Shown in pieces: positions 7,870 through 22,021 of a stretch of DNA of 24,405 nucleotides. The first letter of the stretch is position 1. Each line of letters opens with the position of its first letter. This DNA is from a virus: the IMG/VR virus record IMGVR_UViG_3300036785_000437, positions 1-24,405 of that record, one strand, 5' to 3'. Both the position numbers and the translations under genes were made by a program. The notes under the pieces were generated by a model that did no database searches, was not told the DNA's origin, and saw only the letters and a list, made by a program, of their open reading frames with translations.

Positions 7870-9588
7870 ATGCTCCGCATCCCCGACAAAGACCTCGAGC
7901 TGTGGCTGAAGGAACTCGCTGACGAGTGCATGGCGTCGGCGGAGGAGCGCGGCATGGTCTACGCCCGCGCCGCGCAATACTACTACACCGGCACTCACGA
8001 CAGCCGCGCCGCGATCTACAACAAGTGCAAGCCGTTCATCGACAAGCTGGCCGGCTTCCTGATGCAGCCGACCGACGTGCGCTTCGCCATGATCTACGAT
8101 GACAATGAAAGCGACAGCGTGGTCGAGCGCGCCCAATTGGTGTCCGACAAGCTGACGGCCGACTATCGCAACAGCGACAGCGACATCACCTTTGCCGAAG
8201 GCGTGGTGTGGTCGATGATCAATGGCTGCACCTTGCTCAAGCACATCCCGACCGAGGAAGGTGGCTTTCAGCTCGGCCAAGTGCATCCACAAAACTTTGG
8301 CGTGCTGTCGGAGACCACGATCGGCCTCGATGAGCAGGAAGCCTTTTGCCATGTCAGCTACCCGACCGTCTCGCGGCTACGTCAGGTTCTTGCCAACCAT
8401 CCGCACCGTGAGGCTATTCTCGCCAAGGTTGGCGAGACCCGGCCGGGCGAGCAGGACAGCGAGCGCCCCTCGTATTTTCATCAAATGGTCGTGGGTGGCC
8501 TCAACCCGCTCGGTGATTACCCTGGAGGGGCACCACGGAGTGAGGCTGCCGGCATCGTCAACGTCTTTCCGATACCAACGCCCTGGCGGCCCAATCGCAA
8601 GCTCGCGCCGACCGTCAAGCATGTCGAGATCTGGATCAAGGACCGCGACCGCGATGGTGACTACTCCGTCATCCAGATGATCCACGGTCACGAGCCGATC
8701 ATCATCGAGGGCGACAAGACCCGCCGCAACCTGTCGAAGATCCCCGGCCGCAACTCGTTCGTCAAGGTCCAGGCCCAAGTCACGCCCGGTTATTTCTGGG
8801 GCCGGTCGATGATCGCCGACGTGCAGATGTTGCAGGACATCTTGAACAAAAGGTTACGTGATCTCAAGGTCATGTGGGATCGCAACGTCGCCGCCCCGCA
8901 AGTGTTCTCCGGCTTCACCTCGATCACCGAGGAGCAGTATTTCAAGATCATCTCCGAGGGCGGCTTCATCAACGATCCGAACCCAAACGCCAAGGCGCAG
9001 AAGCTCACCGACCCGCCGCCAGCAAACTACCTCGAAGAGCTGCAATTCCTGTTTCAACTGTTCGACGAGGCATCGGGCTTCAGCCCGGTGATGTCGGGCC
9101 AAGGTGAGCCAGGGGTGCGGGCAGGGGTCCACGCCCAAACCCTGGTCCGCACATCGACGCCGCGCCTGATCGACCAAGCCGCCCGCATCGAGCGCCAGCT
9201 CAACGAGAGCGGCTATCTCGCCTTCCGCATCATGCAGGCGATGGACCCGCACGTTTACGTCACCGGGGACAACAAGATTGAGTTCCGCCTCGCCACCATG
9301 CCGGACGGCTTCCAGATCCAGGTGGACAGCCATAGCGCGTCGCCCGCCTTCGCTGAGGACAACCGTCAGGTGGCCATTGCTCTAGCGCGCGCGGGCGCGG
9401 TCGACGCCGAGGACCTGATCCACATGTTGCATCCGCCTGGAGCCGAGCTTTTGCTTGCCCGCCTGCGACAGCGGCAGAAGAAGGCCGCCGAAACCGCCCA
9501 AGAGGAGAAGAAGGAGGAGCTGATCAAGGGTGTGCTCGGCTTCCCCTCCGGCGGCAAGAAGTCGTCGGGTGGACGAAAGCGGCAGTGA
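7870..9588 (+). CDS. Portal protein
   Basis: This 572-residue protein forms the ring at the DNA-entry vertex that docks terminase and then the tail. Evidence is its length, its place between terminase and scaffold/capsid, and a portal-like layout: an N-terminal helical region (ELADECMASAEERGMVYARA) with YYYTG, a central strand-rich region (HVEIWIKDRDRDGDY), then GYFWGRSMIADVQMLQDILN and a long helical stretch (RLIDQAARIERQLNESGYLA). The C-terminus is a charged helix with a basic Gly/Lys/Arg tail (EEKKEELIKGVL). The size fits podovirus-like portals, though I cannot assign the exact subfamily by eye. The stop of the preceding gene abuts its ATG. Codon use is GC-rich and even. Confidence 0.8.
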   Translation: MLRIPDKDLELWLKELADECMASAEERGMVYARAAQYYYTGTHDSRAAIYNKCKPFIDKLAGFLMQPTDVRFAMIYDDNESDSVVERAQLVSDKLTADYRNSDSDITFAEGVVWSMINGCTLLKHIPTEEGGFQLGQVHPQNFGVLSETTIGLDEQEAFCHVSYPTVSRLRQVLANHPHREAILAKVGETRPGEQDSERPSYFHQMVVGGLNPLGDYPGGAPRSEAAGIVNVFPIPTPWRPNRKLAPTVKHVEIWIKDRDRDGDYSVIQMIHGHEPIIIEGDKTRRNLSKIPGRNSFVKVQAQVTPGYFWGRSMIADVQMLQDILNKRLRDLKVMWDRNVAAPQVFSGFTSITEEQYFKIISEGGFINDPNPNAKAQKLTDPPPANYLEELQFLFQLFDEASGFSPVMSGQGEPGVRAGVHAQTLVRTSTPRLIDQAARIERQLNESGYLAFRIMQAMDPHVYVTGDNKIEFRLATMPDGFQIQVDSHSASPAFAEDNRQVAIALARAGAVDAEDLIHMLHPPGAELLLARLRQRQKKAAETAQEEKKEELIKGVLGFPSGGKKSSGGRKRQ

Positions 9589-12945: not shown

Positions 12946-13832
12946 TGGCCGAGCCAGAACTCCTAGCAGCGCCTGTCGTCAGCAGCGTCGCTCCAAAAAC
13001 GGGTCCACCAGAGACCGCCACCGCTGTCACCATCACCGGCACGGGGTTCACGGGTGCGACTTCGATCACCTTTGGCGGTGAAACCGCAACCACGGTCGTC
13101 ATCGTCAGCGACACCTCGATCACCTGCCACACGCCGGCCAATATCGGCTTTGCTACGGTCGATGTGACCGTCGTCACGCCGGGCGGCAGCAACACGCTGT
13201 CCAGTGGGTTCACTTTCCAGACTGCAACCTCACCAATTTTTCCAGCGTTCACGCCGATCTATCCGCCGCCCGCTGTTGGCGTCGGCGGCGGAGCTGCGCC
13301 CACCTTCCCCCCGCCGACCCCGCCGCCCATCGGGCAGGTCCCTGTTGGCCCGCTGGTCGGTCCGGCCATAGCGCCCGCCGCAGTGCCTCCCTCTGTGGCG
13401 GGCGTCGTGCAGCCGCAATACAAGACCGGCAGCGCGACGACGCCGGCCGGTTACTTCCCGTCCTTCACCGCGACGACCGCATACGCCGGCTTCCCGAACA
13501 ATCCACCGACTGGCGTGCCAATCGTGTTCTCCAACATTTCCACCAACCCATCGCGCAGCGGCGGTGTCTGGACCGTGGTGCCCCCGCCATCGACGGCGAC
13601 CATCGCGCAGATTACACTCAATGGCGCATCAAACTTGACGCCGCATCTCTTTGAGGTTGAGCACGATGTTGGCTCAGTACGTCTCGGACACGAGGAACCT
13701 GCTGAACGATCAGCAGGGGCAGTTTTTCCCGGAGACGACGCTCCATACCTACATCAACCGCAGCCGACGAAGAGTAGCCGCCGCAAGCGGCTGTCTGAGG
13801 GTGGTCCCACCGGGCATTCTGACAATTCCTAA
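12945..13832 (+). CDS. IPT/TIG (Ig-like) domain protein
   Basis: A 295-residue protein starting at ATG 12945 (TAATG). Residues about 10-92 form one IPT/TIG Ig-like domain: PVVSSVAPKTGPP, AVTITGTGFTGATSITFGG, TSITCHTPA and VTVVTPGGSN. A long Pro/Gly/Ala-rich stretch follows (PTFPPPTPPPIGQVPVGP). Ig-like domains next to capsid genes often decorate heads or bind carbohydrate on cell surfaces. The last 55 residues overlap the connector gene in another frame and lose protein-like character, so the original stop may have been near 13650. A decoration or adhesin role is inferred from domain and position. Confidence 0.7.
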   Translation: MAEPELLAAPVVSSVAPKTGPPETATAVTITGTGFTGATSITFGGETATTVVIVSDTSITCHTPANIGFATVDVTVVTPGGSNTLSSGFTFQTATSPIFPAFTPIYPPPAVGVGGGAAPTFPPPTPPPIGQVPVGPLVGPAIAPAAVPPSVAGVVQPQYKTGSATTPAGYFPSFTATTAYAGFPNNPPTGVPIVFSNISTNPSRSGGVWTVVPPPSTATIAQITLNGASNLTPHLFEVEHDVGSVRLGHEEPAERSAGAVFPGDDAPYLHQPQPTKSSRRKRLSEGGPTGHSDNS

Positions 13833-14400
13833 TCAGGAAATTTATCCGTTCAGTGCCTGGAACGCGCTGGTGCAGCAAACTCTGCCCGGCGTGCAGTCCA
13901 TCCTCGCCTGCCGCTCGCTCGCCGTCGCCATCGGCGGCAAATGGCAACAGCAAGACAACGGCCAGTGGATCATTGCCGGCGGCGCGTGGAAGCCGCTGTG
14001 GCGGCGCATCGTCTGGACCGATTTCCAGGCGCGCTTCCGCATCTATGGCAGAACCTTCCTGGGCGTGCTTTCCGAGCCGGGCTGGTACTCGCAGTTCGGC
14101 GAGGGCGCGCTGGCGTCGCTCTATCTCGCGCCGATCCCCACGTCGACAATGCCGATGGAGCTTGATCTGTCGTGCGTGCCGTCGCCGCTACTCACCGACA
14201 ACGATCCCGATCCAATCCCCTACCCTTGGACCGACGCGGTGAGTTATTGGGCTGGAGTTTTATGCCTAATGCAGCAGCAGCGCGGCCAGGATGCCTCGGC
14301 GCTGGCGCAGGTGTTCAACGCCGAGATGCCGTTCGCCGCCTCGGTGGTCTGCCCGCAGATGATCCAGACCGCCTACGGCGCGGCGATGCGTAGCGCGTGA
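13666..14400 (+). CDS. Head-tail connector/adaptor-like protein
   Basis: A 244-residue protein. The start MLAQYVSDTRNLLNDQQGQF followed by LHTYINRSRRRVAAASGC is the helical pattern common to neck/adaptor proteins placed after the capsid gene in podoviruses. The C-terminal part is strand- and Trp-rich (KPLWRRIVWTDFQARFRIYG, YPWTDAVSYWAGVLCLMQQQ). ATG 13666 is preferred over an upstream TTG at 13651. The name is based on order and style, not on a signature motif. It overlaps the end of the IPT/TIG frame by 167 bases and stops four bases before the next gene. Confidence 0.55.
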   Translation: MLAQYVSDTRNLLNDQQGQFFPETTLHTYINRSRRRVAAASGCLRVVPPGILTIPNQEIYPFSAWNALVQQTLPGVQSILACRSLAVAIGGKWQQQDNGQWIIAGGAWKPLWRRIVWTDFQARFRIYGRTFLGVLSEPGWYSQFGEGALASLYLAPIPTSTMPMELDLSCVPSPLLTDNDPDPIPYPWTDAVSYWAGVLCLMQQQRGQDASALAQVFNAEMPFAASVVCPQMIQTAYGAAMRSA

Positions 14401-14404
14401 GCCA

Positions 14405-16018
14405 ATGCCGATCCAGAGCGCCAACCCGTTCGAGCTGTTCACACTCGATCAGTGGAAGGGGCTCAACCAGCAGGGCCGTCGCGGCTCGATCGACGATCAA
14501 GAGGAATGGTGGGACGAGAACCTGTTCGCCATCGGTCCCGGCAATCTGCGCTCATGCTGGGGTCATGGCCCGGCGATCTACACCGCCCCTGCAGGAGCGT
14601 CCATTCTAAGAATTTTCTTTGGCTTCATCGGCAACGAGACAGGAGAGTTCAATGTCCCGCCTCCCGGTCGCCTCGGCTGGATGTTCCTCAGTGACGGCAA
14701 TGTCGACCAAGTCGATCTCGACACCCGCACGGTCACTCGCGTTGGCGTTGCCTGGGAGCCCATCACCCCGCAGTATTGGGCCAGCGCAGTGGTGTGGCGG
14801 CCTCAATTCTTCGGTAACACTGCCGGGCAGCAAGGCGGCGTCCTGCTTGGAAGCCCCAAAGGGCTCTACGCCTGGGATGGCACGCTACTCTCCGCCCCTG
14901 GCGATCCGGCACCGGATTGGCTGACCGAAGCGCTGGAAACGCCGTCGCCGCCGGTTAGCTACACGATGCCGGAAGGATTGCCCGGCATCTACTGCATGGA
15001 GGTCTATCAGAGCAGGCTATGGGTCGCCGGCAAGGACGTCATCTCTTTTTCTGCTCCCTCAAATGGCGCAGATTTCTCCACCACCGACGGCGGCGGCTCG
15101 TTCGGCTACTTCGGCAACAAGCTGACCTACAGCTTCAACGATCTGGCCGCCTCGGCCGGTTATTTGTACTGCTTTGGCGACAGCTCGATCGACTTGATCG
15201 CCAACGTGCAGCTCTCCGGCCAGGGCACGCCGCAAAACCCGTTCACCACCAACTTCAACTACGAGAACATCGATCCCCAGGTCGGGCAGCGCTTCCCGCG
15301 GCCGGTGGGCCGCCTCGGCCGCTACTTTCAGACCTTCAACGGTGCCGGCATCTTCGAGTGCCGCGGTGGCGAAGCCGGCGAGATCGGCAATCGCGTCACC
15401 AACATCCTCAACACGCTCGACACCTCGACATTCTTGCCGACCATGTGCCCGGCGACGATGTTCGGCTTCAAAGTTTTGCTTTGTAACGGAAAATTCACTG
15501 ACCCGTTCGGCGTGTCACGCAGCTTGTTGTTGATGTACCACCCCGGCCAGCAGCCGTTCTGGTCAGTTGCTAGTCAAAATTTAAATTTGACCAACATCAG
15601 TGCCTACGAGCAGGACAGCGTCATCACGCCATACGGCACGGACGGCACTGCGCTCTATCAGTTGTTCGCGCAGCCCGACCCCAACCTGATCAAGCGGCTG
15701 GCGACCAAGTTCTTTCGCGGCAGCGGGCAGAAGCAATTGATCATCAAGAATTGGAAACGGCTGTTCCTGGAATTTTACGACAATTTCGGCGGCGGGGTGT
15801 CGCTCACCGGCAAGCTGATCACGGCCGGCGGCGGCGTGCCGGGCGGCAGCCAGGACATCGGCTTCGAGCTAAGCGCCGGACAACACTTTGCTTTCGAGCC
15901 GCAGCAGACCTCGGGCGGCGGCATCGCCGGGTCCATCGAGCTGCAAAGCTTCTCACCAGATTTCACTTTGGAGAGGCTTCATGTAGGATCAGAGGACCGA
16001 ACGTTGTTCGGCGCTTAA
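14405..16018 (+). CDS. Tail hub/nozzle-like structural protein
   Basis: A 537-residue, strand-rich protein with many Gly, aromatic and Asn/Asp turns (FELFTLDQWKGLNQQGRRGS, GYFGNKLTYSFNDLAASAG, GIYCMEVYQSRLWVAGKD), suggesting repeated beta blades. In podoviruses the protein after the adaptor is the tail hub or DNA-stabilising nozzle (P22 gp10 or T7 gp12 type), and size and order fit. No enzymatic motif is seen. This identification is an inference from synteny and fold impression. Codon use is GC-rich and even. It is followed by a short gap with GAGGAGAAGAGCAG, the ribosome site for the first of the basic micro-genes. Confidence 0.6.
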   Translation: MPIQSANPFELFTLDQWKGLNQQGRRGSIDDQEEWWDENLFAIGPGNLRSCWGHGPAIYTAPAGASILRIFFGFIGNETGEFNVPPPGRLGWMFLSDGNVDQVDLDTRTVTRVGVAWEPITPQYWASAVVWRPQFFGNTAGQQGGVLLGSPKGLYAWDGTLLSAPGDPAPDWLTEALETPSPPVSYTMPEGLPGIYCMEVYQSRLWVAGKDVISFSAPSNGADFSTTDGGGSFGYFGNKLTYSFNDLAASAGYLYCFGDSSIDLIANVQLSGQGTPQNPFTTNFNYENIDPQVGQRFPRPVGRLGRYFQTFNGAGIFECRGGEAGEIGNRVTNILNTLDTSTFLPTMCPATMFGFKVLLCNGKFTDPFGVSRSLLLMYHPGQQPFWSVASQNLNLTNISAYEQDSVITPYGTDGTALYQLFAQPDPNLIKRLATKFFRGSGQKQLIIKNWKRLFLEFYDNFGGGVSLTGKLITAGGGVPGGSQDIGFELSAGQHFAFEPQQTSGGGIAGSIELQSFSPDFTLERLHVGSEDRTLFGA

Positions 16019-16049
16019 CCCGCACACACTCGAAAGAGGAGAAGAGCAG

Positions 16050-16118
16050 ATGGGTAACCTTGAAACCGCAGTTCGTGAGCGTCGTGGCAAGCGCCGTGGC
16101 CGCAAAGGCCGCCGGTAA
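16050..16118 (+). CDS. Arg-rich micro-protein A (22 residues)
   Basis: A strong ribosome site (AGAGGAGAAGAGCAG) precedes the ATG. The peptide starts MGNLETAVRERRGKRR; 10 of 22 residues are Arg or Lys. It is the first of six consecutive basic mini-genes. The composition resembles protamine-like or RNA-binding arginine-rich peptides. No family assignment is possible at this size. Confidence 0.55.
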   Translation: MGNLETAVRERRGKRRGRKGRR

Positions 16119-16123
16119 GCCCG

Positions 16124-16168
16124 ATGGCGCGTAGAGGGCGCAAATCTCGCAGAGGCGGGAGGTACTGA
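16124..16168 (+). CDS. Arg-rich micro-protein B (14 residues)
   Basis: The frame reads MARRGRKSRRGGRY; 7 of 14 residues are basic. It starts five bases after the stop of A and its TGA overlaps the next ATG (TGATG at 16166-16170). Its own codons provide the GGGAGG ribosome site for gene C. It could be a real peptide or just a coupling frame. Confidence 0.4.
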   Translation: MARRGRKSRRGGRY

Positions 16169-16248
16169 TGGCACGCGGTAAGCGTCTCAAGCAGACCCGC
16201 CGCGCCCGGCGCATCAGAGCCCGCAAGGCGAGGAGGCATGGCCGCTGA
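16168..16248 (+). CDS. Arg-rich micro-protein C (26 residues)
   Basis: The ATG overlaps the stop of B and follows GGGAGGTAC. It begins MARGKRLKQTRRARRIRA; 14 of 26 residues are Arg or Lys, so it would be almost fully positively charged and probably helical on binding nucleic acid. Its start region is 18/22 identical to that of gene E, suggesting duplication. It overlaps gene D by 11 bases. Confidence 0.55.
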   Translation: MARGKRLKQTRRARRIRARKARRHGR

Positions 16249-16396
16249 CATTTCCAAGATGTTGGGCCGGCAGCTCAAGAACAAACGCTTCTTGAACTAT
16301 CGCACCCCGAATGTTCAGCCACGCCTTAACTCTTCGCTCAAACAGGGCGTCACTCGTCGGGTCAGCCCGCGAATGCGCCCGATTAGGAGGCTCTGA
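16238..16396 (+). CDS. Basic mini-protein D (52 residues)
   Basis: It starts MAADISKMLGRQLKNKRFLN after GAGGAGG, overlapping C by 11 bases. It has 14 basic residues of 52, fewer than its neighbours, with a helical N-terminal half and a basic tail (RRVSPRMRPIRRL). The final codons supply AGGAGG for gene E, and the stop overlaps the next ATG. It is the most protein-like member of the array. Confidence 0.6.
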   Translation: MAADISKMLGRQLKNKRFLNYRTPNVQPRLNSSLKQGVTRRVSPRMRPIRRL

Positions 16397-16536
16397 TGGC
16401 ACGAGGCGTCAACCTTGGGCCACGCAGCCGCGTTGATCCAGCCGGCAAGCTCGGCCGGCTGCATCGGCCGTCCACACGCATTCGTCGGCATCGCGGCCAT
16501 CGACAAGGCCGTGCTGGCCGGCGCGGCCGCATGTGA
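16396..16536 (+). CDS. Basic mini-protein E (46 residues)
   Basis: The ATG overlaps the stop of D (TGATG) and follows AGGAGGCTC. It starts MARGVNLGPRSRVDPAGKLG and ends HRQGRAGRRGRM; 15 of 46 residues are basic, with Gly and His. It is probably disordered until bound to a polyanion. Its start region repeats that of gene C. No family is recognised. Confidence 0.55.
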   Translation: MARGVNLGPRSRVDPAGKLGRLHRPSTRIRRHRGHRQGRAGRRGRM

Positions 16537-16543
16537 GGCTGTG

Positions 16544-16714
16544 ATGGCTCGTCAAGACAAAGCGCCGGGCCGCACTGGCCCGGTTCGCCGCATGCCTTGG
16601 TCGAACGGTGCCTATCCGGGCGATTGTCGGCCAACGCGCGGCAATCACTTGCACAGAACGCCGCGACCCGGTGGACGCACCGGGCCGGACCATCGGCGAG
16701 GGCGGCGGCGGTGA
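16544..16714 (+). CDS. Basic mini-protein F (56 residues)
   Basis: It begins MARQDKAPGRTGPVRRMPWS; 15 of 56 residues are basic, and it ends with HRRGRRR. It is Pro/Gly/Arg-rich with a single Cys. It starts seven bases after the stop of E, and its TGA overlaps the GTG of the VRR-NUC gene. The shared MAR N-terminus with B, C and E suggests descent from one ancestor. Confidence 0.55.
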   Translation: MARQDKAPGRTGPVRRMPWSNGAYPGDCRPTRGNHLHRTPRPGGRTGPDHRRGRRR

Positions 16715-17178
16715 AGAGATCCGCCGCTAGGCCGTTCAATCTGCCGCACTCCCCGAAGGAGAGCGAGCTGCACGTGTCCGTGGCTGAGCTGCTCGACTGG
16801 ATACTGCTACCTCCAGCGATGTTCACCACGTTCCCGGCCGGTTGGGGCAAGCTCACCAAAGCAACCGCCGGCCGGCTCCATGCCAGCGGCCTGAAGAAGG
16901 GCATGCCGGACATTCTGGTGTTTGATGCCCGCCAACGGATGGACGTCACCAAAGTCGTCGGCATCGAGCTGAAGGTCGGCGCTAACGCCGTCAGCTCGGC
17001 GCAGCGCACCATGTTCGCCAAATTGCAAGCGGTCGGCATCACGGTCTATGTTTGCCGCAACATCGACGATGTCATTCGCGCGCTCGACGAAGAACTCATT
17101 CCGCATCGCCACATCAACAGCCAGACAATACCATCACTGCCGATAGGAGCCGAGAATGTCACGGGAGAACCAATCTGA
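16711..17178 (+). CDS. VRR-NUC domain nuclease
   Basis: A 155-residue protein of the VRR-NUC (PD-(D/E)XK) family. From the GTG start: ESELHVSVAELLDW (17-30); GLKKGMPDILVFD with Asp67; GIELKVG with Glu86 and Lys88; and SAQRTMF with Gln98. These match the G-x-P-D...E-x-K...Q active-site pattern of the family. The C-terminal VYVCRNIDDVIRALDE fits the last strand and helix. Stand-alone phage VRR-NUC proteins are thought to cut or resolve branched DNA, possibly aiding packaging. GTG 16711 overlaps the stop of gene F. It overlaps the next gene by 23 bases. Its place in the late region suggests a packaging or ejection role, which is an inference. Confidence 0.85.
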   Translation: MKRSAARPFNLPHSPKESELHVSVAELLDWILLPPAMFTTFPAGWGKLTKATAGRLHASGLKKGMPDILVFDARQRMDVTKVVGIELKVGANAVSSAQRTMFAKLQAVGITVYVCRNIDDVIRALDEELIPHRHINSQTIPSLPIGAENVTGEPI

Positions 17179-17470
17179 ATGGCCCAGACAGAAACCTTCG
17201 GACGGAACAGATCGGACCAGCCCAACGGGCTGCTTTCAGACCTCGGACGGAGTTCTGAGGTCAGATCGCTCACTAGACGGTCCTTTGCGGCTGGGGACGG
17301 AGCCGAGGATCGGCCCAAGGGGCGCATTGCGGGGCGGCAACGCCTCCGACTTCGGCATGGATCGCGTAAGCCCAAGAGGGTTTGATCCGCTCGGCACCTC
17401 CGACACCCGCGCTCCGACGCAGGAAGCCAGCACGCTGATCTCCAAGGAAGTGCGCCGCTACAAACGGTGA
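17156..17470 (+). CDS. Unknown protein with two competing frames
   Basis: ATG 17156 has the ribosome site TAGGAGCCGAGA and gives 104 residues ending APTQEASTLISKEVRRYKR, which looks genuine. A second frame, ATG 17179 to 17385 directly after the VRR-NUC stop, looks better in the first half (MAQTETFGRNRSDQPNG, basic). The real gene may use the second frame first and then shift by +1 near the GGGG around 17330, or the two may overlap. No family is recognised. Strong local hairpins (17219-17233, and GACCTC/GAGGTC nearby) lie in the first half. Confidence 0.5.
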   Translation: MSRENQSEWPRQKPSDGTDRTSPTGCFQTSDGVLRSDRSLDGPLRLGTEPRIGPRGALRGGNASDFGMDRVSPRGFDPLGTSDTRAPTQEASTLISKEVRRYKR

Positions 17471-17631: not shown

Positions 17632-18369
17632 ATGCCGCTCGCGGTCCTGCTCAACCCCGATGATCCAATCTACGCCTTCGAGCACATGATGCAGACCCGG
17701 CAATATTTTGCCGTCATGGAACAGTTGTTCAATTTTTCTATTTTACCGTATCTGCTCGATCCGAGCACCGACACTGCCGCACCCGCCGGACCGTGGAACT
17801 TGCGGCATCAACAATCGCACACCGACTTCAACGCCGACCTGCCGTCGAACTACGCCGATGGCTACACCACGGCGGTGATCACGCCCGCGCCCGCCACTGG
17901 CACCGGCACCTCGACCGGAACCACCAGCTTGGCGATGGTGGGCGTGGCCGGCACCATCATGATTGGCGCGACCGTTGCGGGCGCAGGCGTGCCCGGTGGC
18001 GTCACCATCATCGCGCAGCAGAGCGGTCCGGCAGGCGGCAGCGGCACCTACACCACCAGCGCGGCAACGACGCTGTCCGGGGTGGCGCTGACCATCACCC
18101 ACCCGCCCTACACCCAGGCCACCGCCATCGACGGCGGGACCTTCGGTATTCCGCAGGCGCAGATTTTGCTAGAAGGGAACGGGGGCAGCCCGGAGAACCG
18201 ATCATGGTGGACGTTCGTCAACCACCAGCAACATTTCACAGCGAACCAAGCAGTGTTGCCCTTGCCAACGACGGCACCTATCACCGCAGGGACCCCGCCG
18301 GGAGTGGAAACGGTCTCGAACCCGTGGTGGTGGGTGAGCCGAGCGCCGGTGGTGTTCCCGTTCTGGTAG
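17632..18369 (+). CDS. Fibre/decoration-like virion protein
   Basis: A 245-residue protein. The middle (about residues 87-160) has the repetitive small-residue pattern AMVGVAGTIMIGATVAGAGV, then GGSGTYTTSAATTLSGVALT, seen in phage tail-fibre and decoration proteins. The N-terminus is helical (AFEHMMQTRQYFAVMEQL) and the C-terminus Trp-rich (NPWWWVSRAPVV). No ribosome site is visible; the start lies just after the structured RNA, so translation may depend on it. Its 3' part overlaps the GNAT-like gene by 166 bases in another frame. A host-recognition role is only a suggestion. Confidence 0.6.
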   Translation: MPLAVLLNPDDPIYAFEHMMQTRQYFAVMEQLFNFSILPYLLDPSTDTAAPAGPWNLRHQQSHTDFNADLPSNYADGYTTAVITPAPATGTGTSTGTTSLAMVGVAGTIMIGATVAGAGVPGGVTIIAQQSGPAGGSGTYTTSAATTLSGVALTITHPPYTQATAIDGGTFGIPQAQILLEGNGGSPENRSWWTFVNHQQHFTANQAVLPLPTTAPITAGTPPGVETVSNPWWWVSRAPVVFPFW

Positions 18370-18788
18370 AGCCTCGGGTGATGACCGAGGCCGACATCCC
18401 CTGGCTGTTCTATCTGTGTCGCAAGAAATACTCTCACAAGTACGACGCGCTCTCGACCGAGCTGTGGTTTCGCAACATCGTGATGAAGAACCCGCTGCTG
18501 TACCTGCCGCAGCGCACCGACAACGCCTTTTGCATCTCCATGCTGACGACGCTGCCGTGGGTGCCCTACGAGTTCGAGGCCAGCATCGTCTTCATCGTTG
18601 CCGACGACGGCCGTGGCCTGGAAGCTTTGAAGCTAATGCGTGCCTCGGTCGAGTGGGCGAGGTCGCGGCGCTGCGTGGCATGGCGCTGCTCGTCGGAGAC
18701 CGACAGCGACCTAACCGTGTTCTGCCGCCGCGTCGGCGCAACCGAGATCAGCCCGCGCTTCACCTTGAGGCTGCAGTATGAGCGGTGA
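18204..18788 (+). CDS. GNAT-like acetyltransferase-fold protein
   Basis: The ATG at 18204 has CGGAGAA eight bases upstream and gives 194 residues; an in-frame ATG at 18381 would cut the first strand of the fold. The core starts VLVEPRVMTEADIPWLFYLC, like the first strand and helix of GNAT proteins, continues with EFEASIVFIVADD and a helix (GLEALKLMRASVEWARSR), and ends FCRRVGATEISPRFTLRL, resembling the late LGA-type segment. GNAT-like proteins occur in podovirus structural regions and may modify virion or host proteins; the acetyl-CoA pocket is not clearly readable here. The first 55 or so residues overlap the previous gene and look less natural. It overlaps the next gene by 11 bases. Confidence 0.6.
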   Translation: MVDVRQPPATFHSEPSSVALANDGTYHRRDPAGSGNGLEPVVVGEPSAGGVPVLVEPRVMTEADIPWLFYLCRKKYSHKYDALSTELWFRNIVMKNPLLYLPQRTDNAFCISMLTTLPWVPYEFEASIVFIVADDGRGLEALKLMRASVEWARSRRCVAWRCSSETDSDLTVFCRRVGATEISPRFTLRLQYER

Positions 18789-19194: not shown

Positions 19195-19691
19195 TGGCAG
19201 GCGGATCAGGCGGCGGCGGGCAGCCGGGGCAAATCCAAGGCTCTGACATGGCTAACGCCATGTTCGGCACGCAGCTCTCCATCAAGGACATGACCAACCG
19301 CTACAATCAGCTCGGGCTCGGAGGCACCGGGGCTACCCCATCCGGGGCGACCTCGGGAGCAGTCAAGGGCGTGCCCGGCAGCGGCACGACCCCAGTCACT
19401 CCCGGCACGCCTGCCAGCCCCGGCAGCCCCGGCACCTCCGGCTTCGGCGGCAGTTTTGGCGTCGGTGGCACCTCCGGCATGCCCGCCTCCCCCGCCTCTG
19501 GCCCGACCGCCTACCTGATGGACATCGGTCGAGCCCCCAGCCTGACTGGCGGCATTCCGCAGGAGTTCCAGGGCGCGCTTGGCGAGGGGCAATTCCAGGA
19601 CCTGAGCGAGACCACCCAGGCAGCTGTCGGCGCGCAGCAGGCCAAGGGACAGGTTGCCAGCGGCATTGGGTCGCTCATTGGAGGCATCTGA
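19194..19691 (+). CDS. Gly/Pro/Ser/Thr-rich virion protein
   Basis: A 165-residue protein starting MAGGSGGGGQPGQIQGSDMA. It has a helical patch (LSIKDMTNRYNQLGLG), a central stretch of Pro/Gly/Thr/Ser (TTPVTPGTPASPGSPGTSG), and a helical C-terminus ending GIGSLIGGI, which echoes the previous gene. It is probably a disordered internal or ejected virion component. ATG 19194 overlaps the previous stop; the longer open frame upstream is a shadow. The stop overlaps the next ATG. Confidence 0.6.
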   Translation: MAGGSGGGGQPGQIQGSDMANAMFGTQLSIKDMTNRYNQLGLGGTGATPSGATSGAVKGVPGSGTTPVTPGTPASPGSPGTSGFGGSFGVGGTSGMPASPASGPTAYLMDIGRAPSLTGGIPQEFQGALGEGQFQDLSETTQAAVGAQQAKGQVASGIGSLIGGI

Positions 19692-22021
19692 TGGCTGGCG
19701 GCGGTGGTGGCGGCGGTGGCGGTGGTGGTGGTAGCGGCACCGCCTTAGGCGACCAGCAACCTCTGGCCCAGACCACCGGCAATGATTTTTCCGGCAATGC
19801 GATGTCGCCGGGCGGCTCTCCGGCGCAATTCGTCGACAATGCCATGATGGGCGGCGGTGGCGGCCCGGCCGCCATGGTCGGCGGCCAGAACGACCCGGCG
19901 ACCCAAGCGCAGTATCAGGGGCTCTATGCCTCGACCCAAACTCCGCCGGCTCCTCCAACAGGCACACAGTCCGGGCAGCAAGGCCCCGCCTGGGCGAGCG
20001 GCATTCAGAAGATCGGCGAAGCTTTGTTCGGGTCGCAGGCCCACGCCTCAAGCCTGCCGAATGTCGCCGGACGGGCTTCGACCGCAAGCGCCGGCTGGCC
20101 AACGGCCGGCGGGGCGGGCGGTGGTGGTGGGACCGACCCCTACGGCAACACCTACACCACCCAGCCCGGCTACCAGGGCTCGGCGGCGCTTCCGCTGCCG
20201 CCTTATTCACCGTCTGCGGCAGCCGCTCCCGCTGCTGCCCCAGCCCCGGCTCCGCAGCCGGCCCCTCAGCAACCGGCGGCGGAGACCGGCGGCGGCAAGA
20301 TCACGCCGGCCGAGCCGACGCCCGAGGTGGCAACTGCACCAACGCCCGAGGTGCCGCTACCGCGCCCGCGTCCGCCCGAGGCCGATGCAACACCGGCGTC
20401 AGCCGCGACAGGTGTGCCGCCGCTCTCGCTCAATGTCGCTGAAAGCTACATGGACCCGGCAACGTCAGCGGGTGCATCGTCAGAATTGACCGGACAATTA
20501 CCAACTGCGCTTTCAACAGCGCAGCGGGTTGTTGACCCGACCGGCCTGGGGCGAGTGGAAATGACCTCGCCTGACTTTAACGACCGCTCAATAGTCCCCG
20601 GCTCCACTCCTTATCCGGGGCGATCGCCGGTCGAGACGGCGGCTCCCAGCCCACAGCCTGAAACGCCAGCAGTGCCGGCCCAGGCTGAACCGTCGCCCTA
20701 CCGGGGCGACAGATTGGACCGCAATCCCAAAGGCGACCGGCTGGATCGGCCAGCAGGTGAGCCCTTCCAGGATCGGTTCGGCCAATGGCACATGACGCCC
20801 GAAGGCGACGCATCCGAGCCTGGGCCTGCCACAGTTTCGCCACAATCGAGCACCGGCTCTGGAAATACACCGACCGGACCGACGCCAGATAGTCCCATTG
20901 GCAAGCTGATGCGCGGCGACTTCTCCGGGGCCTTCACCGGCGCGATGCGCGCGCTGACCGGCCAACTCGGGGTCTCAAACGAGCAAAATATGGTCGGGAA
21001 AGGCACCCCACCGCCCCCGCCGACGCCTATTCAGACCCAAAATTTGCAGCGTCCGCCCGGCAGGGGTGACATTGAGGCGCAACGGACCGCCCCCAACCGG
21101 GCTTTTCAGCCGCCGGTCCCCGTTCCGGGCACTTTTGGCTCGACCGCGCTCGCCGGAGGCAATCTTGGAGCGCGTCCTGGCGGCCGTGCTGTCCCGATGG
21201 ACCCCTTTACCGCAGGCGCGCCGCCGTCTGGGGCACCGCCATTCAACGCTCAAGCGGCAAAACCACAAGACCGGGCACCACAAGGCGCACCCGGAGCACA
21301 GACACAGGCTCCCGCGCCTGCTCCAACCCCCGCTCCCGGCGGAACAGCCGGCGCGGCTACCCCACCTCCTAGGGTGCCGCAATGGTCTGGTGGCACAACC
21401 CAGCACATGGTCGCCAACACGCTGGCGCGTGGCGGCGCGCAACCGAATGCCATTGCCGGCATCATGGCCAACATCGGTCCCGAGAGTGGCTTCAATCGCA
21501 ATGCTCGTAATCCTCAGTCTGGTGCGCGTGGACTGGTGCAATTCTCACCAACCGGCGAGGAGCTGGGTGCGTACAAGACGTGGCTGACCCAGAACAACCA
21601 GCTCCAGCAGGCCGGCAACCCGCAAAACCAGATGAAATTCCTCACCGAGCGACTGAAGACGGCTTATCCACAGACCTGGGCACGGATGAACGCCGCGCAG
21701 ACGCCGGCCCAAGCTGCCGAAATCTTCGTGCGCGAGTACGAGCGCCCCGGCGCAGCCGACCTGAACCGCCGCGTTCTGCAATTCCGCAATCAGGGTGTGC
21801 CGAATGTCGAGCAGCAGCTCGGTGGTGGGGCGCGCTCGCAGGCAACGCCGAACGCGCTCAACGCGCTGCGGCAGCAGCGTGGATTATCGCAGCAAGCCTT
21901 CGCCGCGCCAGACCCGCGCGGTGGCGGCTTCGACACGCCCTATAGGGTTACGCCACGGCCCAAACGGCCACCGCCGCAATGGTATGGTCCGGTCGACCGA
22001 TCACCACGTGATGTCGCATGA
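19691..22021 (+). CDS. Pro-rich virion protein with lysozyme-like domain
   Basis: A 776-residue protein. It begins MAGG with a run of 12 Gly, then about 540 residues of Pro/Ala/Gly/Thr-rich sequence (APAPAPQPAPQQPA; a repeated GDRLDR). The domain from about residue 563 (TTQHMVANTLARGGAQPNAI, AGIMANIGPESGF, GARGLVQFSPTGEELGAY) fits the phage tail lysozyme family, with the likely catalytic Glu598 in ESGF. The domain would cut peptidoglycan during DNA entry. The disordered N-terminus suits passage through the portal on ejection. Its poly-Gly start and ATG overlap match the previous gene's start, suggesting duplication of the 5' end. It is followed by GAGGAGAGCA and the small exported gene. Confidence 0.75.
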   Translation: MAGGGGGGGGGGGGSGTALGDQQPLAQTTGNDFSGNAMSPGGSPAQFVDNAMMGGGGGPAAMVGGQNDPATQAQYQGLYASTQTPPAPPTGTQSGQQGPAWASGIQKIGEALFGSQAHASSLPNVAGRASTASAGWPTAGGAGGGGGTDPYGNTYTTQPGYQGSAALPLPPYSPSAAAAPAAAPAPAPQPAPQQPAAETGGGKITPAEPTPEVATAPTPEVPLPRPRPPEADATPASAATGVPPLSLNVAESYMDPATSAGASSELTGQLPTALSTAQRVVDPTGLGRVEMTSPDFNDRSIVPGSTPYPGRSPVETAAPSPQPETPAVPAQAEPSPYRGDRLDRNPKGDRLDRPAGEPFQDRFGQWHMTPEGDASEPGPATVSPQSSTGSGNTPTGPTPDSPIGKLMRGDFSGAFTGAMRALTGQLGVSNEQNMVGKGTPPPPPTPIQTQNLQRPPGRGDIEAQRTAPNRAFQPPVPVPGTFGSTALAGGNLGARPGGRAVPMDPFTAGAPPSGAPPFNAQAAKPQDRAPQGAPGAQTQAPAPAPTPAPGGTAGAATPPPRVPQWSGGTTQHMVANTLARGGAQPNAIAGIMANIGPESGFNRNARNPQSGARGLVQFSPTGEELGAYKTWLTQNNQLQQAGNPQNQMKFLTERLKTAYPQTWARMNAAQTPAQAAEIFVREYERPGAADLNRRVLQFRNQGVPNVEQQLGGGARSQATPNALNALRQQRGLSQQAFAAPDPRGGGFDTPYRVTPRPKRPPPQWYGPVDRSPRDVA

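Follow-up and report, generated by a model that had tools for sequence, protein, structure and literature searches.

Arginine-rich micro-genes form a conserved cassette behind a phage tail gene and may encode DNA-gripping virion peptides

Why a phage should encode a row of very short Arg-rich peptides among its structural genes is the question raised by a 24.4-kb IMG/VR record from an uncultured virus (24,405 nucleotides, here called the window). An original prediction, made from the sequence, placed six such frames (micro-genes A–F) between a tail gene and a VRR-NUC gene and offered three roles for their products: protamine-like condensation of packaged DNA, RNA-binding antitermination and toxicity to the host. 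Reanalysis reproduced the coordinates, lengths, composition (27–54% Arg+Lys) and joints of all six frames, which are listed with the adjacent genes in Table 1.

Table 1. Micro-genes of the window and the genes that flank them
Feature	Position	Strand	Product	Basis or remark
Adaptor (tubeA-like) gene	13651–14400	+	249 aa	Pfam SU10_adaptor PF24175, 27.1 bits (cut-off 27)
Tail gene, putative nozzle	14405–16018	+	537 aa	Directly upstream of cassette; place of P22 gp10/T7 gp12
Micro-gene A	16050–16118	+	22 aa, MGNLETAVRERRGKRRGRKGRR, 45% Arg+Lys	Codon-position pattern of family A
Micro-gene B	16124–16168	+	14 aa, MARRGRKSRRGGRY, 50% Arg+Lys	Weakest of the six
Micro-gene C	16168–16248	+	26 aa, 54% Arg+Lys, core L[KR][QM]TRRARRIRAR	Family alignment
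Micro-gene D	16238–16396	+	52 aa, 27% Arg+Lys, C-terminal RRL	Family alignment
Micro-gene E	16396–16536	+	46 aa, 33% Arg+Lys, invariant LGPRSRVDPAG	Family alignment
Micro-gene F	16544–16714	+	56 aa, 27% Arg+Lys, PRPGxRTGP invariant near C-terminus	Family alignment
VRR-NUC nuclease gene	16711–17178	+		PF08774; phrog_5702, Holliday junction resolvase; coupled to F

The six ORFs tile 94% of positions 16019–16714, and together their products carry a net charge of +68. Gaps of 5 and 7 nt separate A from B and E from F, respectively, a single base is shared at the B-C and D-E junctions (TGATG), C and D overlap by 11 nt, and the nuclease gene starts at a GTG within the end of F (GTGA). Four of the peptides (B, C, E and F) begin with MAR, as predicted, and the start regions of C and E are identical at 18 of 22 positions, which reflects mostly the common Shine-Dalgarno, TGATG and MAR codons. 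A good ribosome site had been claimed for each frame; this holds for five of the six, the exception being B, where CCGGTAAGCCCG precedes the ATG and no recognizable site is present. Micro-gene B is also restricted to the closest relatives. An internal near-repeat, PGRTGPV, was noted in peptide F. Neither promoter nor terminator signals were conspicuous in the region, and a search of Rfam returned no RNA.

The region is 66% GC, and GC-rich DNA that favors Arg codons could throw up such ORFs by chance, a reading to which the weakly supported micro-gene B lends itself. Shuffled DNA, however, failed to reproduce the array. The maximum observed in 3000 base shuffles was three ORFs and 40% coverage, compared with six ORFs and 94% coverage in the real DNA at a cut-off of 26% Arg+Lys. 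At a cut-off of 27%, the real DNA yielded four ORFs and 48% coverage, a result reached by none of 2000 dinucleotide shuffles, and elsewhere in the window, away from the array, no segment exceeded 22% coverage.

Substitution patterns among relatives bear on the same point. In families C, E and F, and in the further families M and N, differences at the first, second and third codon positions were 0.14–0.18, 0.08–0.13 and 0.39–0.49, respectively, a pattern like that of the tail gene (0.18, 0.13 and 0.39), and pN/pS ranged from 0.22 to 0.55 (C, 0.30; E, 0.39; F, 0.50). An excess of third-position differences was also present in families D, A and A2; the value for D was taken from 58 distinct coding sequences, since the motif table over-calls this family in several loci. 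Because the patterns match that of the tail gene and are frame-specific, unlike the expectation for GC-rich non-coding DNA, sequence comparison indicates that eight peptide families (C, E, F, M, N, D, A and A2) are translated and under purifying selection. Broken frames in close relatives, named beforehand as an outcome contrary to the prediction, were looked for and none occurred. Given also that about 70 cassettes conserve the array, the probability that it is an artefact is practically negligible, and for A and C–F a chance origin is refuted by the substitution patterns.

None of 50,697 phage records is a near match of the window. Scanning with the tail protein (537 aa) returned 32 viral loci, and at every locus with enough downstream DNA an array of Arg-rich micro-genes directly followed the tail gene. 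With the window included, E was present in 28 of 28 loci of this set and F in 27; the exception (L019) ends 774 bp past the tail gene, and its sister locus, L024, carries F further on. Scans with the peptides themselves returned 62 loci for E, 51 for F and 4 for N, and the tail gene lay upstream of the cassette in 62/62 loci found with E and in 55/55 found with F or N. Scans with C and M, whose reach is limited by short, low-complexity queries, returned few loci, and beyond the known set only two contigs, both also found with E; the alignment of D was too variable to serve as a query. In total, 72 distinct cassettes were collected from IMG/VR, 70 of which are followed by 900 bp or more of sequence. 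Every relative is a metagenomic contig from an uncultured phage, and nineteen of the larger records, 40.1–43.7 kb in length, each contain the terminase gene. The search of related phages that had been suggested for conserved micro-gene order recovered the array in these cassettes, after the same tail gene as in the window.

Peptides E and F diverge to about the same extent as the tail protein (mean pairwise divergence 0.35, 0.38 and 0.31, respectively), while LGPRSRVDPAG of E and PRPGxRTGP of F are retained by 90% or more of the roughly 63 sequences. The distances for E and F are moderately correlated with tail-protein distances (Mantel r = 0.33 and 0.37), in keeping with genes that are short or partly exchanged. 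Among about 85,000 genomes of bacteria and archaea, no relative was recovered by the tail profile or by E, as would fit a lytic group.

Comparison of the cassettes revealed a loose grammar in which roughly four to eight very short genes are drawn from about ten peptide families, of which E and F are near-universal and the rest swap, move or fuse. Typically, A or A2 comes first and C, D, E and F follow, with B, G, H and M optional and often a nuclease gene next; N lies further downstream in about 31 of the 70 cassettes. Families A and A2 are poly-Arg peptides, the latter headed by WLDFTEDRR, and family D in relatives has the core WRLPxWRPRxxSYRKG. One-base overlap of the TGATG kind is the commonest junction, occurring at 25 of 34 D-E and 22 of 46 E-F junctions. 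The position of M varies: it precedes D in L039 and L041, lies between D and E in L046, L069 and L070, and follows F in L076 and L088. An A2-M fusion (MNPNLGWLDFTEDRRRMVLVPASRKAARARRRGRRR) is found upstream of E in L070; this fusion stands, but cases in which an E or F motif seemed joined to a longer protein appear to reflect ORFs begun too early and were discarded. An HNH-like gene (L024, 7918–8352) was observed inside one cassette, between D and E. The motif table leaves four loci without E, three of which visibly carry it, the fourth being L132. In three genomes of 42.8–43.1 kb, short ORFs beyond the cassette that are Arg-rich and have a ribosome site were few and formed no cluster comparable to it; of these, N alone is related.

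No member of family C was detected in 11 of the 70 cassettes. Since M or G precedes E in 7 of these 11, compared with 13 of the 59 cassettes with C (Fisher p = 0.009), the C, M and G peptides may, judging from their distribution, substitute for one another.

The peptides had no match in PHROGs, Pfam or NCBIfam at E values up to 1, in searches whose sensitivity is limited by short, low-complexity sequences, and no accepted match in PDB profile searches; hits of the F profile to a Gp5/VgrG protein (E = 0.034) and to MHC chains (E = 0.05 or worse) were taken as chance. By sequence, the peptides were assigned to no known family among those searched. Peptide F was given no fold by AlphaFold2 (mean pLDDT 61, pTM 0.21). 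E and F were absent from the isolate phages searched, and open-access full-text literature, in papers under open licences, contained no description of such a cassette. The statement in the original prediction that no phage system with this layout had been described is consistent with these searches.

The gene directly upstream of the cassette is a putative nozzle gene, an assignment based on position, since the gene before it matches the SU10 adaptor family. The tail protein itself had no match in PHROGs, Pfam or PDB; its AlphaFold2 model was poor (pLDDT 39), and the Foldseek matches of this model, several of them to beta-propellers, were insignificant. P22 encodes gp10 and then gp26. In SU10, similarly, nozzle gp17 is followed by needle gp18 (PMC9509320). 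If the tail gene is a nozzle gene, the cassette fills the same slot as the needle genes, and a plug role is possible for the micro-peptides, although needles are long trimeric coiled-coil proteins whereas the micro-peptides are short (14–56 aa), Arg-rich and, in the case of F, devoid of a predicted fold.

Mx8 of Myxococcus and the Manatee Spring phages MW202753 and MW202825 share a related capsid protein (26–35% identity) and a similar gene order with the lineage described here. Mx8 was the only cultured phage reached through the capsid protein (26% identity), and the portal of the Manatee Spring phages is about 30% identical. By contrast, none of these phages has Arg-rich micro-genes after the nozzle-position gene, which in Mx8 is of similar length and runs directly into an acyltransferase gene. 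The Mx8 gene in question is p52 (L168, 6851–8461), which encodes 536 aa, is annotated "amidase" and sits after tail gene p51; length and place suggest that it encodes a nozzle protein, and no sequence similarity between its product and the tail protein of the window could be detected (hhalign probability 0.2%).

Several further genes were observed downstream of the cassette. A 104-aa Arg/Gly-rich protein with the motif GTEPRxGPRG is encoded after the resolvase (window 17156–17470) and at the same place in the relatives G003 and G007, and belongs to no known family; a basic ORF, SLTRRAFA..RHRARR, overlaps it in another frame and is probably spurious. A GNAT-like frame lies at 18255–18788; in Mx8 the acyltransferase gene after the nozzle-position gene is p53. 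A 776-aa Gly-rich protein with a phage tail lysozyme domain (19691–22021; PF18013, E = 2e-21) is probably an ejection protein.

The slot after F is occupied by VRR-NUC in the window and, in some relatives, by a RuvC-like (phrog_1770) or a RusA/PDDEXK_15 (phrog_244) gene, three mutually unrelated kinds that provide an example of non-orthologous replacement. Such slots are found at 8278–8817 in L020, 8296–8823 in L026 and 8299–8712 in L014. At least 46 of the 70 cassettes carry one of these Holliday-junction-type nucleases, a lower bound because the count is motif-based. This coupling would suit peptides that stayed out of the virion and acted inside the cell in DNA maturation, binding branched or concatemeric DNA together with the resolvase or terminase. 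The link to the nuclease is not strict, however, as HNH, Tad2-like and other genes take or share the slot in some relatives; linkage to the tail gene, in contrast, is strict. We regard a role confined to DNA maturation as distinctly unlikely.

In L022, the gene inserted between F and a RuvC-like gene (8327–8557), and thus adjoining the cassette, is Tad2-like (anti-Thoeris; PF11195, E = 4e-24). Such a neighbor, together with the turnover of C, M, G, H and N, which resembles that of accessory genes, would suit peptides directed at a host nucleic-acid enzyme, the ribosome or a defense system, and a toxin role is conceivable. Against this stand the near-universal E and F, conserved like the tail protein, the location in a late tail operon and the lack of a family match, and a host-directed function appears improbable.

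Regulation through RNA, for example by N-like antiterminators, was considered because C, M and N have Arg-rich cores that look helical, that of C presumably resembling the Arg-rich motifs of the lambda N type (QTRRxxRR). Yet the C profile had no match in PDB, N-peptides included, and boxB-like hairpins, counted with a simple GNNRA-loop model in four genomes, numbered 1, 4, 6 and 2 compared with 2.5, 3.8, 4.8 and 4.3 expected, which is no excess. Furthermore, the cassette is positioned late in a structural operon, and peptides of 20–26 aa leave no room for a part that binds RNA polymerase. The antitermination role originally offered is thus disfavored, and RNA-binding regulation as a whole is, in our estimate, very improbable.

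The peptides are small, Arg-rich and strongly cationic, with 27–73% Arg+Lys and a mean charge of about +73 per set. Many copies could neutralize and condense the genome throughout the head in the manner of protamine-like core peptides. Adenovirus mu and VII, baculovirus P6.9 and ascovirus P64 are Arg-rich and act on packaged DNA (PMC6163548), although they belong to eukaryotic viruses, number one to three proteins, lack a row of coupled micro-genes and have no sequence link to the cassette. The apparent interchange of C, M and G also suggests that bulk charge matters in some slots. However, charge does not require the invariant motifs of D, E and F, neutralizing even 10% of a 43-kb genome would take about 126 sets per virion, and total cassette charge spans 36–132 (parsed genes only); to our knowledge, moreover, tailed phages usually package DNA without such proteins. 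Among the roles first offered, context favors binding to DNA inside the virion or close to it, but a protamine acting by charge alone is less likely given the invariant LGPRSRVDP and PRPGxRTGPVR, and we consider protamine-like core peptides rather unlikely.

Docking combined with DNA gripping fits the peptides better than charge alone, because near-invariant motifs are joined to Arg-rich tails. We tentatively propose, at somewhat less than an even chance, that the cassette products are disordered, Arg-rich peptides of the virion, which dock on its neck or on the packaging complex and grip packaged DNA, in the manner of T7 gp7.3 and gp6.7. The set of micro-proteins would be made late, from the tail-assembly operon, with translation largely coupled from one micro-gene to another. 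We infer that the products enter the virion, where conserved motifs would dock on a portal-adaptor-nozzle neck protein or the packaging complex; candidate motifs are LGPRSRVDPAG in E, PRPGxRTGPVR and PWSDxAWPSDW in F, and WRLPxWRPRxxSYRKG in D. The Arg-rich parts would grip the packaged DNA, mainly at the last-packaged end, and the genome would be held or plugged until ejection.

Support for the neck model comes from the strict linkage to the tail gene across all loci found with E, F or N, from the divergence of E and F at about the rate of the tail protein with near-invariant motifs retained, from purifying selection on eight peptide families, from the match of the upstream gene to the SU10 adaptor family and from the lack of a predicted fold in F. 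In T7, the end of the DNA is anchored via Lys residues by gp7.3, of which six copies sit at the adaptor/nozzle junction, and the portal is bridged to the core by twelve gp6.7 (PMC11784390). The proposed likeness is mechanistic, one of small proteins linked to the neck of a short-tailed phage. T7 has just two such proteins, which are larger (gp6.7, 88 aa) and encoded in other places. Points against docking at the neck are that T7 needs one or two such proteins compared with five to eight here, that the neighboring Holliday-junction nuclease suits DNA maturation inside the cell equally well, and that the T7 likeness is mechanistic and the nozzle call positional. It is also conceivable, if unlikely, that the interchangeable coupled micro-genes form a multi-part Arg-rich kit of protamine-like and docking peptides, a phage "chromatin" that packs the genome and for which the searches revealed no described counterpart.

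In the current view, tailed phages fill their heads with DNA by means of a motor, aided by small cations. Finding the peptides in the virion would show that tailed phages can also apply Arg-rich peptides to packaged DNA, and would make the cassette a natural source of peptides that grip DNA and have separable docking motifs. Viruses are already known to bind their packaged DNA with small basic proteins; the sequences, multiplicity and layout described here are new. Such short basic genes are easily missed by gene finders, and a near-universal part of this lineage may have stayed invisible as a result. With its interchangeable micro-genes, the set also offers a way to test how minimal genes arise and are exchanged.
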